Assembly: GCA_025450635.1 (NCBI GenBank)
Contig: JANWHA010000093.1
Span: 1 to 39,180, forward strand
Reading direction: 5' to 3'
Length of the DNA: 39,180 nucleotides
Origin: Croceibacterium sp.
Lineage (GTDB): Bacteria > Pseudomonadota > Alphaproteobacteria > Sphingomonadales > Sphingomonadaceae
Shown: positions 29,506 to 34,617 of the stretch, one piece after another
How positions within the stretch are numbered: the first letter of the stretch is position 1
How the letters are laid out: every line of letters begins with the position of its first letter
Translations under genes and position numbers: made by a program
The notes under the pieces: generated by a model
Told to the model about the DNA's origin: nothing
Databases searched by the model: none
Seen by the model: the letters and a program-made list of their open reading frames with translations, nothing else

Positions 29506-30729
29506 TTGCTTTACGAGGCCTACGAATTTCAACGCCGGTGGCTTGCCAGCGCCAGCAGCTGGGCGGCAGTCGGGGCAAAGATGCTCAACAATCCGGCTTT
29601 GCCTATCGGCTACCTCGGGATGGGCCCGGTCGTTGCCAGCGCGCTCGAGGTCTTTGCTCACCTTTATGAAGAACGCCGTAAGCCGGAGTTCGGCATCAGC
29701 TCGGTCGATGTTGCCGGTAAGCGCCACCAAGTCCAGGAACAGGTAGTCTTCGAAAAGCCGTTCGGCAGCCTGCGTCATTTCCGGCGCGCCGGACTTCCAC
29801 TTAACGCGCCCAAGCTACTGATCGTCGCCCCAATGAGCGGGCACCACGCAACATTGCTGCGCGGCACGGTGGCACGGTTGGTCGAGAATCAAGAAGTGTG
29901 GATCACCGACTGGGCCGACGCCAAGATGGTACCGCTGTCCATGGGTGAGTTCGATCTCGACGACTACATCGACTATCTGATCGAGTTTCTCCATTACATC
30001 GGCGACAGAGCCCACGTCCTGGCGGTGTGTCAGCCGTCCGTTCCGGCCCTGGCCGCGACAGCGATCATGGGAGCCGCGAACGATCCGCTCGGCCCGGCAA
30101 CGCTCACGATGATGGGCGGCCCGGTCGACACCCGCGCCAGCCCGACCAGCGTCAACGACATCGCCATGGCGCGGCCGCTGTCGTGGTTCCGGTCGCATGT
30201 CACGGCGACAGTGCCGCTCAACTACCCGGGTGCAGGCCGCAAGGTCTACCCTGGGTTCATGCAGCTCGCCGGGTTCATCTCGATGAATCTCGAGACGCAC
30301 ATGATGAGTCACTACGAGATGTTCAAACACCTCACGCGCGGCGATACCGAGAGCGCCGCGGCGACCAAGGCGTTTTACGACGAATATCTGTCAGTGTGCG
30401 ACATGACCGCCGAGTTCTATCTCGCAACGATCGACCAGGTATTCCAGAAGCACGCGCTTCCCAACGGCAAGCTCATTCACCGGGGCAAACCGGTTGATCC
30501 GCGGGCGATCCGCGACACGGCGCTGCTGGCGATAGAAGGAGAGCGCGACGACATCTCCGGCATCGGCCAGACACGCGCTGCGCTCGACCTTGCGACCGCT
30601 CTGCAGCCGTCGCAGAAGAAATATCACCTTGCCCGCGGCGTGGGACACTATGGCATTTTCAACGGCAGCAAATGGCGTTCGCGGATTGCTCCGATGGTCG
30701 AGGGCTGGATCCGGGCCAATCCCTCGTAA
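29506..30729 (+). CDS. phaZ: Intracellular polyhydroxyalkanoate depolymerase
   Basis: A 407-residue cytoplasmic enzyme that degrades native PHA/PHB granules to mobilise stored carbon. The N-terminus LYEAYEFQRRWLASAS and the segment PKLLIVAPMSGHHATLLRGTVARL are typical of the PhaZ1 family. The nucleophile is Cys175 in AVCQPSVPALA, as in cysteine-type PHB depolymerases; the aspartate in EGERDDISG and histidine in GVGHYGIFNG complete the triad. The TTG start at 29506 has AAGGA eight bases upstream. The 144-base gap to the divergent ABC exporter (29362-29505) shows no confident promoter. No PHA synthase gene is in the window. Confidence 0.92.
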   Translation: MLYEAYEFQRRWLASASSWAAVGAKMLNNPALPIGYLGMGPVVASALEVFAHLYEERRKPEFGISSVDVAGKRHQVQEQVVFEKPFGSLRHFRRAGLPLNAPKLLIVAPMSGHHATLLRGTVARLVENQEVWITDWADAKMVPLSMGEFDLDDYIDYLIEFLHYIGDRAHVLAVCQPSVPALAATAIMGAANDPLGPATLTMMGGPVDTRASPTSVNDIAMARPLSWFRSHVTATVPLNYPGAGRKVYPGFMQLAGFISMNLETHMMSHYEMFKHLTRGDTESAAATKAFYDEYLSVCDMTAEFYLATIDQVFQKHALPNGKLIHRGKPVDPRAIRDTALLAIEGERDDISGIGQTRAALDLATALQPSQKKYHLARGVGHYGIFNGSKWRSRIAPMVEGWIRANPS

Positions 30730-30777: not shown

Positions 30778-32712
30778 TTAGCCATAGACCGGAACGTTGC
30801 GCATGCCCGCCTTGTGGCCAGCCATCTTGACCAGCTGGGTGGCGATCAAACCGCTGACATCCGTCCAGATTTCCACGGCCAGCACCAGGCCGTTAAGGTC
30901 GAGGTCCCCGACGCTGATGCGCGTGTCCTTGACCGTCGCCACGGATCCCGCAAACGTCTTGGCGGCTGCGTGTACGACGGTGTTGGCCTGCACTTCGATG
31001 GTCCCCTCCACGGCCCAGCTATCCGCGTTGCCGGTCGTGGTCATGTGAGCGATTTCCACGGCTGTCGCACCGTCAATCTGGCAGGTCACGCGGACATGCC
31101 GGGTGTTCGCTCCGCCACCTCCGGTCGTTCCGGTGAGCCTGAAACGGACCTCGTCGAGGAATTCGAGGTCCCCCGGCGCGATCGCCATGCTGTAGGCAAC
31201 GGTGTTGGCGGCAGTGCTGGCGATCGTCATTTGTTCGGCGTTCACGATTGCCATCGACGCGATCCGGCGCGACGCGTCGCATTCATTGTTGCGGATCGTG
31301 TTGCCGTTGAGCGCAGCTCGCGTCAGCGATTCGAAGCCTCCGGGGAAATAGTTGTTCTCGACGCGCCAGTTCGTGCACGGCTGGATGATCCGAAGCGCAC
31401 CGCTTTCGCACCAGACGTTCTCAACGACGCCTTGGTCACCTTGGATATCGCCCGCCCGCGTTGCCACGGTCCCGAAGCACCTGATGTTCCTGAAATAGGG
31501 CCGCGTCAGGCCGGCGCCGGCATCCCCGGCAGTGAAGAACCTGGCGCCAACCGGAAGATGTAGATCGATGTTCTCATATCCGCAGTCGATATTGGGATTG
31601 CCGACGGTCGGGGTCGATCGAATGACCAGACCGTCTCCAGTATGGGCCGGAAAGCGAAGTGTGCTGTTGCGGATGGCATTGTTATGGCCTCCGCCCAGCT
31701 GGCAGGCCGCGCCGCCGGTCGCATTATTGGGGCCGGAGCTGACGTGAAAATCTTCGTAGACACAATACGCGCTGTTCTCGGCGATGGAGAGAAAGAACGG
31801 GCCGGTGTCATCGCCGCCGCCCAATTTCGTGCGGGCGTCCGCGAGCGACCCCCTTACTGAGCGGAATGTGGTTCCGTACGAGCCTTCGCCGAACTCGGCG
31901 ATCTTGCGCCAGCTGTGGAAATGGATGTTCTCGAACAGGCAATTTTGGGCAGCGTTCAACCCGATGCCGTTGCGCCCGACCATGATCAGGTCGCGGAACG
32001 TGCCGTCGATGACGCCCCCCCACTTGAGCGTTTCGCCGAGATCGGATGCCACGGTCAGGTTCGAGACGTGTGGCGCATAGAGCAGATAGTAATTCGGCAG
32101 GCCCTCGATGGCCGAACTCGCTCCTGCATCGGCATTGGCGATCACGGGCGAATCAGCGAGCAGTTCGTCAGGCAAAATCCTGTCCAGCGTCACGCTGGAC
32201 GCTGTCGCCGCCAGCACCCGGGCACGGGTATAGTGTCGATAGACGTGGTATTCCCCGTTCGAGACGAAATAGCTGGTCGCCCCGTGCACGACGACCAGGT
32301 TGCCGGCGGCAAATTGGTCGCCGTCTCCGGCTGTGAGAGCAAGGACAGTGCCGTCGGCGGACTGCACCGGGTAGTAGGTCAGCCACTCGGTCCCCCACAC
32401 GTTGGATACACCCATCGGCAAGGCGCCGGAGGGCACGTCGTTGGTCGAGAGTGGCGTCGGGTTGACGTTGCGCAGCTCGGCCCCGTTGCCCCTGATCACG
32501 AGTCGCTGGCGCGTGAGATAGGGAGCCGTCTCGACCGTGTGGGATTCGCCGGCAATTCCCAGCAGCGCAGCATAATCCGCCGACAGGGCTTCGAGCGCGG
32601 CAGCAGTCGGTGCCGCACGGCTGGCGATATTCGCGGCGCCCTCGTTCGATAGGACTTCGGTATCGAGCGCGCGCTTGGCGAGACCGCGCGCGGTGACATC
32701 GAGCGCGTTCAC
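30778..32712 (-). CDS. Phage tailspike-like parallel beta-helix protein
   Basis: A 644-residue protein without a signal peptide. The N-terminus (VTARGLAKRALDTEVLSNEGAANIAS) looks like the particle-binding head of tail fibres. From about residue 55 to 510 it is a right-handed beta-helix: LVIRGNGAELRNV, LPNYYLLYAPHVSNLTVAS, GVIDGTFRDLIMVGRNGIGLNAAQNCLFENIHFHSW, GHNNAIRNSTLRF and NWRVENNYFPGG. A C-terminal beta-sandwich-like region of about 120 residues follows. The GTG start overlaps the stop of the preceding gene in GTGA. This architecture fits tailspikes that bind or cleave surface polysaccharide, but no catalytic residues were identified. No capsid, terminase or integrase gene is nearby. Confidence 0.65.
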   Translation of the reverse strand: MNALDVTARGLAKRALDTEVLSNEGAANIASRAAPTAAALEALSADYAALLGIAGESHTVETAPYLTRQRLVIRGNGAELRNVNPTPLSTNDVPSGALPMGVSNVWGTEWLTYYPVQSADGTVLALTAGDGDQFAAGNLVVVHGATSYFVSNGEYHVYRHYTRARVLAATASSVTLDRILPDELLADSPVIANADAGASSAIEGLPNYYLLYAPHVSNLTVASDLGETLKWGGVIDGTFRDLIMVGRNGIGLNAAQNCLFENIHFHSWRKIAEFGEGSYGTTFRSVRGSLADARTKLGGGDDTGPFFLSIAENSAYCVYEDFHVSSGPNNATGGAACQLGGGHNNAIRNSTLRFPAHTGDGLVIRSTPTVGNPNIDCGYENIDLHLPVGARFFTAGDAGAGLTRPYFRNIRCFGTVATRAGDIQGDQGVVENVWCESGALRIIQPCTNWRVENNYFPGGFESLTRAALNGNTIRNNECDASRRIASMAIVNAEQMTIASTAANTVAYSMAIAPGDLEFLDEVRFRLTGTTGGGGANTRHVRVTCQIDGATAVEIAHMTTTGNADSWAVEGTIEVQANTVVHAAAKTFAGSVATVKDTRISVGDLDLNGLVLAVEIWTDVSGLIATQLVKMAGHKAGMRNVPVYG

Positions 32713-33140
32713 TGCGACAGCCGATAAGCAACAGTGCCGGAGTTAAGCGCGATGTCGAGATAGAAGCTCACGCCCTCTTCGGTTTCGGTCCAGGCCTGTT
32801 CGCAACCCGGCTCGGTGTATTGCGCCCACACAGTCCCGCCGACCCGCAACGGAATTTTGGTTGTGCCCCCGTCGGTCGAGCGCAGCAGTTGCACCGTTCC
32901 ATCCCACGCGCCGTCGAGGCTGATAACGATCACGCGCCCGGCGGTCGCGGCGAAGGGGCCGACCGTTTCCGACGCGGCCGCCTCGCCGCTGAGCGCGAGC
33001 GGAGCGGGGGCGGAGGTGGCGACCGGGAGCGGTGCGGCATCGCTGACCAGCGCCAGTAACCCGTTGGCGCCGGAATATCCGACGGCATAGGCCGGCGCGA
33101 AGCCAGCGGGAGTGCTAATGGCGGCTGAGGTTGTGGTCAT
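32709..33140 (-). CDS. Small phage-tail-accessory-like protein
   Basis: A 143-residue protein with no signal peptide. The C-terminal half is a beta-rich domain: GRVIVISLDGAWDGTVQLLRSTD, TVWAQYTEPGCEQAWTETEEGVSFYLDIALNSGTVAYRLSQ. This 'variance-reduced signal plus noise' style repeat ending in GTVAYRLSQ resembles small tail or decoration proteins of phages, from memory of such sequences. ATG 33140 is preferred because GGAG lies 6 bases before it; ATG 33155 is in frame upstream. Its stop overlaps the tailspike-like gene by 4 bases, so the two are coupled and probably made in a set ratio. Confidence 0.55.
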   Translation of the reverse strand: MTTTSAAISTPAGFAPAYAVGYSGANGLLALVSDAAPLPVATSAPAPLALSGEAAASETVGPFAATAGRVIVISLDGAWDGTVQLLRSTDGGTTKIPLRVGGTVWAQYTEPGCEQAWTETEEGVSFYLDIALNSGTVAYRLSQ

Positions 33141-33161
33141 CGCGGTCTCCGGCATTGGAAC

Positions 33162-33190: not shown

Positions 33191-33212
33191 CGCGGCGCCT
33201 TGTAGGAAAGTT

Positions 33213-33235
33213 AAAAATCGCCGAGCGGCGATTTT
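33213..33235 (-). terminator. Intrinsic terminator after the O-glycosylation ligase gene
   Basis: AAAATCGCC (33214-33222) pairs perfectly with GGCGATTTT (33227-33235) around a 4-base loop. On the minus strand the stem ends in a run of five T. It lies 15 bases after the ligase stop and separates that operon from the tailspike-like pair. Its symmetry would also allow termination in the other direction. Confidence 0.8.
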
Positions 33236-33249
33236 GTTGGATTTGCCCG

Positions 33250-34617
33250 TCAGGCGCCGGCCGGGACGGCATCGGCGGGCGTCGAACGTCTGAAGCTCGC
33301 CTTTGGAGCTTCCCTGGCGGTGCGCTTGACGTAGCTCCAAAGGCCGCATTGCATACCGACAAGCATGAACATGTACGGCAGGTAAGCGATGCCCACGAAG
33401 GCTGCGCCGAGCAGGTAGATGAGCTGCGCCTGTTGGAGCGCTGTCGCCAGCCCCCATTGCCAACTGCGGGTGCCTTCTTCCGTCCGTTTGAAGCGCCAGC
33501 GGATGCGCTCCATCTGCCATACGCCGAGAAGCTGCAGCGAAATCCACAGGATCAGCCCCGGCCAGCCCTGCTCGCCGAGCATCTCGAAATACGAAGAGTG
33601 ATAGGCACGGGCCTTATCGGTTACCATTTCATAGGTGACTTGCTCGTTGCCGGGCGAGCCGGTGATCTTGGGCATCTTGTAAGTGAAGCTGTTGCTGCGA
33701 TAGGCGTCGAAGCCACCGCCGAACGGATGCATCTTCACGTAATCGAGCGTCCACATCCACACCGCGACCCGGGTCGAGGCGCTTTCGTCCTCCGAATGGC
33801 CCTGGATCGTGTTCATTCGCGCGAGATAGCTTTGCGGCAGGAACGGCACGGCGAGAACGAGCGCGAGCGCGCCAATGCCGGCGTAGAGGACCCTGTGCCT
33901 GGCCGAGCGCAACATGAGCACCGCGAGCAGCGCGGCGCACAGCAGCCCGGTACGCGCCGCCGTGCCGACCGGAATCAACAGGCACGCGAAGATCAGGCCG
34001 GCAACGAAGGTCCACACGCGCCAGTCGGGCTTGAAGATGGTACCGTGCCGGGCGAGCCACAGCGCCAGCGGGATGGTCGCGACTGCGGCGGTAGACAGGA
34101 TCGAGCCCTCGTAAAGCCCGGCGTTCTCGCGCACCAGCAGCGCCAGCGTGCCGTAGCCGCCGCCGCCCAGCGCCGTCTTGACCCCGCCGTTGATCACGAT
34201 CGTCCCCAGGGCCAGCACCATGATCAACGCGGTAGCCTCGAAGCGCAACCGGGTGCGCAGCGTCAGGGGCAGGAAGATCGCGAACAGCAGCGCCTTCCAC
34301 ACCCAGCCCCATTTGGCGAGCGCGTTCACAGGGAAGTCGGCGATGGTCGTGGTATAGGCGCAATAGAGCAGCAGCACGGCAATCATCGCTTGCCGCAAGG
34401 TGAAGCGGGTGCCTTGCTTGCGGTCGAACAACAGCCAGCCGCCGAACGCCGCGACGAACGCAATCAGCGACAGCGGGATCGCCTGGATCAGACCCCAGCC
34501 GATCTTCTGCGGAGCGACGCAGTCGATGTAGATATACGCCAGCACCCAGATGAAGGGACGCTTCAGGCCGAACGCCAGGAACATGGCCACGAAGCCGAGC
34601 AGCCCCAGGTCAAGCAT
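33250..34617 (-). CDS. Exosortase A-associated O-glycosylation ligase (Wzy/WaaL-like)
   Basis: A 455-residue integral membrane protein with about 10-12 hydrophobic helices and a large extracytoplasmic loop in the second half (DYVKMHPFGGGFDAYRSNSF...YHSSYFEMLGEQGWPG), the layout of O-antigen ligase/polymerase enzymes. The opening LGLLGFVAMFLAFGLKRPFIWVLAYIYIDCVAPQKIGWG is characteristic of the family named 'probable O-glycosylation ligase, exosortase A system-associated', recognised from memory. It should transfer lipid-linked glycan to an acceptor at the outer face of the inner membrane. Its ATG shares one base with the stop of a 53-aa frame upstream (TGATG). The exosortase itself is not in the window. 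Confidence 0.85.
   Translation of the reverse strand: MLDLGLLGFVAMFLAFGLKRPFIWVLAYIYIDCVAPQKIGWGLIQAIPLSLIAFVAAFGGWLLFDRKQGTRFTLRQAMIAVLLLYCAYTTTIADFPVNALAKWGWVWKALLFAIFLPLTLRTRLRFEATALIMVLALGTIVINGGVKTALGGGGYGTLALLVRENAGLYEGSILSTAAVATIPLALWLARHGTIFKPDWRVWTFVAGLIFACLLIPVGTAARTGLLCAALLAVLMLRSARHRVLYAGIGALALVLAVPFLPQSYLARMNTIQGHSEDESASTRVAVWMWTLDYVKMHPFGGGFDAYRSNSFTYKMPKITGSPGNEQVTYEMVTDKARAYHSSYFEMLGEQGWPGLILWISLQLLGVWQMERIRWRFKRTEEGTRSWQWGLATALQQAQLIYLLGAAFVGIAYLPYMFMLVGMQCGLWSYVKRTAREAPKASFRRSTPADAVPAGA

Follow-up and report, generated by a model that had tools for sequence, protein, structure and literature searches.

The closest described counterpart of the locus reported here is the head spike of the gene transfer agent (GTA) RcGTA, which consists of the base GhsA (Rcc01079, NF048002) and the fibre GhsB (Rcc01080, NF048003). 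One Rcc01080 fibre is anchored through its residues 2–10, I-A-L-G-L-G-L-G-L, in a pentamer of Rcc01079 (PMC7296036, in the passages available). The late genes of RcGTA, encoding head spike, tail fibre and lysis functions, are co-regulated and are switched on by GafA with CtrA (PMC9638019, accessible in part). Here we describe a gene pair at positions 30778–33140 (minus strand) of a 39,180-nucleotide stretch of Croceibacterium sp. DNA (hereafter the window), in which a small open reading frame (ORF) of 143 aa is coupled to a large ORF of 644 aa. The window is the whole of contig C93 of a 2.31-Mb genome that is 73.8% complete; coordinates, ORF lengths and the GTGA overlap had been given correctly in a first-pass annotation of the sequence. 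We read the pair as a spike cassette of a GTA regulon, with a probability of roughly 0.6. Judged by its sequence features, it appears to resemble a base–fibre spike in layout, N-terminal tag and upstream element, though it does not contain a member of NF048002 or NF048003.

Like GhsA/GhsB, the pair combines a small protein with a (predicted) jelly roll and an adjoining fibre gene. In both cases the coupled fibre gene carries a short conserved N-terminal segment; in RcGTA the first residues of the fibre dock in the base, and those of the pair may by analogy do the same. The RcGTA spike is likewise encoded away from the main cluster and binds the host capsule (PMC7296036, PMC9638019, in the parts seen), and the stand-alone NF048002 genes of Sphingomonadaceae share an upstream sequence box with our pair. 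The two systems differ in the size of the base (84 aa for GhsA, 143 aa here, with no sequence match), in the tag (IALGLGLGL in RcGTA, MxALDxxARGLA here) and in the fibre bodies, which in the pair family are tailspike-like or SGNH-hydrolase-like, unlike GhsB. An overlapping NF048002 base followed by a fibre gene is also found in the phage pairs RcapNL_29/30 and RcapMu57/58, and the NCBIfam library used here detects RcapMu57 and RcapNL_29 as NF048002 and RcapMu58 as NF048003. RcapNL_30 starts with MGLGLGIGLGLSA, in style like the MSALGLSALGLAS of the downstream protein of locus L041, whereas RcapMu58 starts differently, with MTGLPGCGMGGGG. The phage pairs are further distinguished by their location in phage genomes, a 1-nt overlap and a base of 85–88 aa, for which no sequence similarity to the small protein was found. 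RcapNL_0008, considered as another spike base, was rejected by the NCBIfam scan.

Two single enzymes provide further points of comparison. TspA of RcGTA is a tailspike and biofilm depolymerase that has been reported in Rhodobacterales, and according to its authors other GTA-bearing Alphaproteobacteria, non-Rhodobacterales with the GTA megatron, lack it (PMC13420450, in the passages available). As described there, TspA is a polysaccharide enzyme with a beta-helix, whose gene lies outside the main GTA cluster and is under shared control with the GTA; a polysaccharide-depolymerase role therefore exists in GTAs. TspA, which we liken to the pair by description only, differs in being a single gene with an N-terminally fused beta-sandwich, located beside lysS and not at an exopolysaccharide (EPS) locus. 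WceF of Pantoea stewartii is a tailspike-like enzyme encoded among the EPS genes of its host, but has a Tat signal peptide, a P22-like head domain and no link to a GTA, and a small partner gene is not mentioned in the available part of its description (PMC7949094).

Homologues of the small protein are present in 34 of 199 Sphingomonadaceae genomes and in 19 of 96 genera. A class-wide profile search identified it in one of 289 genomes, its own, in a draw that contained few relatives (at least 4 of 289 of the family). Downstream of the small gene an overlapping or abutting gene was found in all 33 loci in which this could be determined (L056 was left out, as the contig ends after the small gene), with a 4-nt overlap in 30, a spacing of +1 in two and of +3 in one. 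When the downstream proteins were compared by BLAST without their first 30 residues, they fell into seven groups, of 18, 8, 2, 2, 1, 1 and 1 members, the window protein and that of L033 forming one group of two, and those of L034 and L047 the other. Residues 2–15 are conserved across these groups, with a mean best-shift identity over 345 pairs of 0.451, which falls to 0.158 and 0.139 in more internal segments. The proteins typically begin with MSALDxxARGLA, or with MSALGLSALGLA in one subgroup. The pair is a real, recurrent and modular cassette; the first-pass term 'orphan' holds within the window, and gives way outside it to this recurrence. A genome-wide search for the RcGTA docking-peptide pattern yielded 38 places, of which two were inspected and dropped.

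The AlphaFold2 model of the small protein (mean predicted local distance difference test score, pLDDT, 86.2; blocks from residue 51 onward at least 94) is a jelly roll whose N-terminal part is less certain. Its closest structural neighbour in VIA-align is the prophage protein YomS (Z 10.5), followed by a phage baseplate-cup protein (9.2), a cement protein (8.7) and endospore appendage subunits (8.5); a virus turret scored 7.5, a level possible from common arrangement alone. Foldseek gave no PDB match under E 0.02 for this protein and three viral models at E ≤ 0.001 (best 1.7e-4). Rcc01079 (6tb9) is outside the structural neighbours listed, which excludes nothing. By sequence, the small protein had no Pfam match, no NCBIfam match at E ≤ 0.1 and nothing convincing in the PDB (best E 0.0098, an adhesin fragment).

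The large protein is the variable part, with relatives in only two of the 199 genomes, its own included. It matches PHROG 23042 ('tail protein', 2.2e-10); it has no Pfam match, no NCBIfam match at E ≤ 0.1 and nothing convincing among PDB sequences. The AlphaFold2 model, built from a two-sequence alignment, is poor (mean pLDDT 47.7, residues 1–306 below 50). A structure search had been proposed in the first-pass annotation, and all 12 Foldseek matches of this low-confidence model at E ≤ 0.001 belong to phage tailspikes or tail fibres; their TM-scores are low (0.11–0.23), as expected from such a model. In VIA-align the top match is the HK620 tailspike (Z 14.7, root-mean-square deviation 5.0, 258 residues), and Sf6, LKA1, CBA120, P22 and the bacterial tailspike-like WceF rank lower. 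The model thus predicts, with low confidence, a phage-tailspike-like fold. The earlier description of a beta-helix protein is supported by the PHROG match and by the tailspike matches of this low-confidence model.

The other bodies are of several kinds. In the group of 18, three of the four members scanned show weak tail-spike PHROG matches (E 0.001–0.07) and one shows none, and five members scanned have no Pfam match. The group of eight is SGNH/GDSL hydrolase-like, as judged by L036 (Lipase_GDSL_2, 2e-8) and L061 (2.5e-5, below cut-off), and L034 has a sub-threshold Beta_helix match. Two members of the group of 18, L058 (G189) and L049 (G133), encode downstream proteins cut to 164 and 207 aa; the N-terminal tag is kept in both, as is a C-terminal domain akin to the one in the longer proteins.

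Bodies of this type would also suit a receptor-binding part of some other particle, an unrelated prophage or tailocin encoded elsewhere in the genome. In addition to the tailspike-like body, the resemblance of the SGNH variant L036 to the phage 'head decoration' family PHROG 9703 (2.9e-12) and a distant HK97-capsid match on another contig of the related genome G191 (1e-11) fit this explanation. We nevertheless consider it very unlikely: tblastn against 50,697 phage records found no relative of either protein, the large protein has none in plasmids, an IMG/VR scan with it returned 4 pattern matches and 0 relatives, and the upstream element shared by the pair points to a GTA holin.

This element was examined in 35 loci, including L181 of G484, a genome outside the 199-genome draw. 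The box [T/G]TCCTACA is present in its exact form in 32, at 53–74 bp (median 60) 5′ of the small gene, and as a variant in two; L052 has no box and only the palindrome AACCGATACGGTT. The palindrome AACCN5GGTT occurs within one mismatch in 18 of the 35 loci (simple shuffles: mean 0.7, maximum 4), and in 15 of these 18 it lies 10–11 or 23 bp after the box. In 705 kb of sequence (37 loci) T[T/G]TCCTACA is found 32 times, every time 5′ of the small gene.

In 19 genomes there are 131 occurrences of the box sequence TTTTCCTACA, with 2 to 13 per genome, against 45 of its reversed control, with 0 to 6 per genome. Away from the pair, 40 of 44 TTTTCCTACA sites in seven genomes were examined (4 of the 8 box sites of G136 were left out). 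Box and palindrome are combined at five of the 40, each of them 5′ of a gene for a GTA-type holin (PF11351, GTA_holin_3TM, 'for gene-transfer release'); the assignment comes from direct scans of L243 and L254 and from the agreement of all five with places found in the PF11351 search. Three further sites without palindrome precede a lysozyme-type endolysin gene (L255 and L258, PF00959; L233 by motif). Conversely, 12 of 30 PF11351 holin loci have the exact box at 48–62 bp. Nine holins from genomes without a GTA tail gene were analyzed separately, eight from pair-bearing genomes (the window's own included) and that of G066, the holin of G154 being left out. The composite element precedes all nine; it is exact in six and deviates by one or two bases in three. 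In the window's own genome the holin element is near-intact, TTTTCCTATA followed by AACCGTACTGGTT.

The same box is found at RcGTA-type spike-base genes. NF048002 genes are present in 37 of the 199 genomes, and in 7/7 genomes examined in which such a gene lies far from the GTA tail gene the box is located 5′ of it. The box is missing in the other two of the nine genomes examined, G081 (with 7.6 kb between base gene and tail gene) and G046 (no tail gene found). The fibres adjoining these bases start with MGALGFGFGS, MIGFGFS and similar sequences. The box without palindrome also precedes helix-turn-helix or small-terminase-like genes (L229, L238 and L263, and L308 and L309 in the window's own genome); L263 matches HTH_28 (5e-4) and L229 Sf6_terminase (0.0066), both below cut-off, and the others were assigned by eye.

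Co-occurrence was evaluated with Fisher tests in which genomes counted as independent, uncorrected for relatedness. As a GTA tail marker we used TIGR02217 (130/199 genomes); GTA_TIM (PF13547) was unusable, since it scores over its cut-off in 0/199 Sphingomonadaceae genomes, and surveys relying on it would miss the family. The GTA holin is present in 147/199 genomes and in 31/34 pair genomes (p = 0.010), and a tail gene or GTA holin in 34/34 pair genomes compared to 139/165 others (p = 0.0096).

Several observations weigh against the assignment of the pair to a GTA regulon. Neither protein matches NF048002 or NF048003, the base family being missed by the small protein itself. The box alone is not GTA-specific, as neither a holin nor an endolysin gene was seen after 32 of the 40 non-pair sites (some of which seem intragenic), and it was not found in ten main GTA clusters examined. 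Among the 30 holin loci, 17 are without the exact box, and the 657-bp distance of a 13th match is implausible. The box is kept and the palindrome is unrecognisable in the window and its two nearest relatives, G191 and G484 (three, three and two mismatches, respectively). TIGR02217 shows no association with the pair (25/34 pair genomes, 105/165 others; p = 0.33). Nine of 34 pair-bearing genomes, the window's own among them, have no GTA tail gene, nor do 4/4 genomes of the window's genus examined. An HK97-capsid match is absent from 7/34 pair genomes, including the one- or two-contig assemblies G078, G189 and G061. In the window's own genome, at 73.8% completeness, the holin is present, and no TIGR02217 or PF05065 capsid match was found.

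Taken together, the different p-values for tail gene and holin and the capsid losses indicate a closer tie of the pair to the GTA lysis regulon than to the structural genes. The idea that the pair occurs only where the GTA structural cluster does was rejected, as there are pair genomes without tail gene or capsid. The first-pass proposal of a transfer-agent part encoded away from its main cluster, beside glycan genes, accordingly has a mixed outcome: the element shared with holin and spike-base genes and the glycan neighbours favour it, while the own genome without GTA tail or capsid match and the pair genomes without tail gene do not. A GTA-type holin without TIGR02217 is found in 43 of the 199 genomes, and neither gene in 26; in many lineages the lysis genes thus seem to last longer than those of the particle. 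In G189 (one contig, 99% complete) a GTA tail gene is found and an HK97-capsid match is not, which gives the impression of a GTA cluster in decay. Loss of the GTA cluster is known from several lineages (PMC10883770, in the part available).

In the genus, the pair occupies a site between an O-antigen-ligase-like gene and phaZ. Whether relatives carry it there, a question raised by the first-pass annotation, has three answers: G191 has the same pair (small protein 69%, large protein 49% identical), G484 has the small gene with an unrelated 587-aa body, and G136 has no pair and only some 50–70 bp (G066 was uninformative, the O-ligase-like gene not being in the stretch taken). The relative without the pair, the absence of a GTA tail gene from the genus genomes and the unrecognisable palindrome at the window could mean that the receptor-binding genes of a GTA or prophage merely persist without function, at least in this genus. 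That they are such a leftover is improbable: neither ORF is disrupted in the window, in G191 or in G484, the ratio of nonsynonymous to synonymous substitution rates (dN/dS) between window and G191 is ~0.30 for both genes (dS of the large gene being near saturation), and the box is retained in all three genomes alongside the near-intact holin element of the window's own.

The surroundings of the pair are rich in glycan genes. From 20 of the 34 loci, 113 neighbouring proteins were collected (six of the 34 small genes were missed by the simple gene caller), of which 30 match glycosyltransferase group 1 and 12 match GDP-mannose-dehydratase/epimerase families. Recurrent neighbours at E ≤ 1e-20 are WcaI-type and XrtA-system glycosyltransferases and GDP-fucose synthase. 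The Pfam tally covers the 25 commonest of 89 families, and single phage genes could sit among the rest. One genus (L049, L050, L058) has a different neighbourhood, which from tallies and positions may be an LptA/glycine-dehydrogenase region.

With so many glycosyltransferases nearby, the pair might instead be a purely bacterial EPS-tailoring enzyme like WceF, a co-opted tailspike-like fold with a small protein partner and no tie to a GTA. WceF is among the structural matches of the large protein (Z 10.2), and the missing association with the GTA tail gene is compatible with this view. It is, however, unlikely in our estimation. WceF has a Tat signal (PMC7949094, as far as available), and none is evident in the pair; each of the 32 boxes in 705 kb precedes the small gene, and none a glycan gene; and the composite element points to the holin. 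The box as a mark of an EPS regulon was also rejected, as it was never found 5′ of a glycan gene in the fetched loci.

For the spike cassette we propose the following mechanism. The small jelly-roll protein would be a constant base, and the large tailspike-like protein an exchangeable fibre or enzyme, whose first ~14 residues would serve as a docking tag (plug) for the base (socket), by analogy with the RcGTA head spike. The pair would be made in the few cells that lyse, as it shares an element with the GTA-type holin, and both proteins would be freed by lysis; this is the simplest route of release because no export signal is evident and the element of the holin is shared. The neighbouring glycan genes point to the cell's own polymer as the target. 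The released spike may bind or cut the host's own exopolysaccharide and so help particles to reach kin, and where the particle genes are gone it could act as a free depolymerase. The coupling of the genes, the common tag, the exchange of bodies, the shared element, the glycan genes around the pair and, at low confidence, the tailspike-like fold are computational findings; particle attachment, our main reservation, and docking, co-expression, substrate and enzymatic activity are what we infer.

A broader form of this proposal, which we offer tentatively and hold to be possible rather than probable, is a sphingomonad 'spike cartridge'. A constant jelly-roll socket would receive interchangeable, tag-docked glycan enzymes (tailspike-like, SGNH hydrolase or others), often encoded beside the matching polysaccharide genes and sharing the control of the GTA lysis genes. 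In this way the release of GTAs would be tied to a kin-specific opening of the host's own slime; where GTA structural genes have been lost, the cartridge would persist as a depolymerase set free by lysis, a public good in the absence of any particle.

The cassette most likely encodes a spike that targets polysaccharides and belongs to the GTA regulon of sphingomonads. Text searches of PMC, a scope mostly outside subscription papers, found no description of the cassette or the element, and an earlier description is possible. If the reading is correct, sphingomonad GTAs gain a polysaccharide-targeting arm, which is not described for them in the literature passages covered, and the placement of the spike beside EPS genes suggests a way of limiting particles to kin. 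The base and tag would be a scaffold for the natural exchange of glycan enzymes, and the regulon would be testable in sphingomonads through a readable element, TTTTCCTACA plus AACCN5GGTT.

The features of the locus are listed in Table 1.

Table 1. Coordinates of the gene pair, its elements and its direct neighbours in the window.
Feature	Position	Strand	Basis
Small constant protein, predicted jelly roll, proposed spike base	32709..33140	-	ORF, 34 homologues, alignment, AlphaFold2
Large variable protein, GTG start, tailspike-like, proposed exchangeable fibre/enzyme	30778..32712	-	ORF, PHROG 23042, Foldseek
GTGA stop/start overlap, 4 nt	32709..32712	-	Sequence; same -4 spacing in 30/33 loci
N-terminal tag of large protein, residues 1-15, MNALDVTARGLAKRA	32668..32712	-	Conserved across otherwise unrelated downstream proteins
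Upstream box CTTTCCTACA	33201..33210	-	AACCN5GGTT of many homologous loci not recognisable at the window
Terminator-like hairpin between O-ligase-like gene and pair	33214..33235	.	Perfect hairpin
O-antigen-ligase-like gene	33250..34617	-	Near TIGR03097 (exosortase-A associated)
phaZ, converging on the pair; flank of the site that is conserved in the genus	29509..30729	+	TIGR01849

Most of the local description in the first-pass annotation was borne out. The convergent neighbour is phaZ (E 4.5e-165 to its family), and no phage family was detected among the 17 other window ORFs scanned, a subset of those present. Neither protein has an evident signal peptide or hydrophobic N-terminal segment, as assessed by eye and with a crude hydropathy scan and not with a dedicated predictor. 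The upstream terminator is present as a perfect hairpin, which is statistically weak (the stretch has 3 terminator-like sites for an expectation of 2.4). The G + C content of the pair, a comparison also suggested there, is 0.63 and 0.67, within the range of six neighbouring genes (0.62–0.69). The O-ligase-like gene scores 182.9 bits, under the cut-off of 188.1, and the window also encodes an XrtA-system glycosyltransferase (TIGR04063) over its cut-off. The small ORF starts at the ATG at 33140, directly after GGAGA; the alternative ATG at 33155 would give 148 aa.

In three of ten GTA regions (L212, L218 and L219 of G088, G194 and G054) the palindrome is followed by TTGACATCG, 0.4 to 3.5 kb before the supposed terminase. 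This is a weak signal, near chance level for the palindrome alone; AACCN5GGTT with TTGACATCG is maybe the main GTA promoter. Finally, over ten comparisons within the pair, dN/dS (NG86) ranged from 0.08 to 0.30, with dS near-saturated in several.

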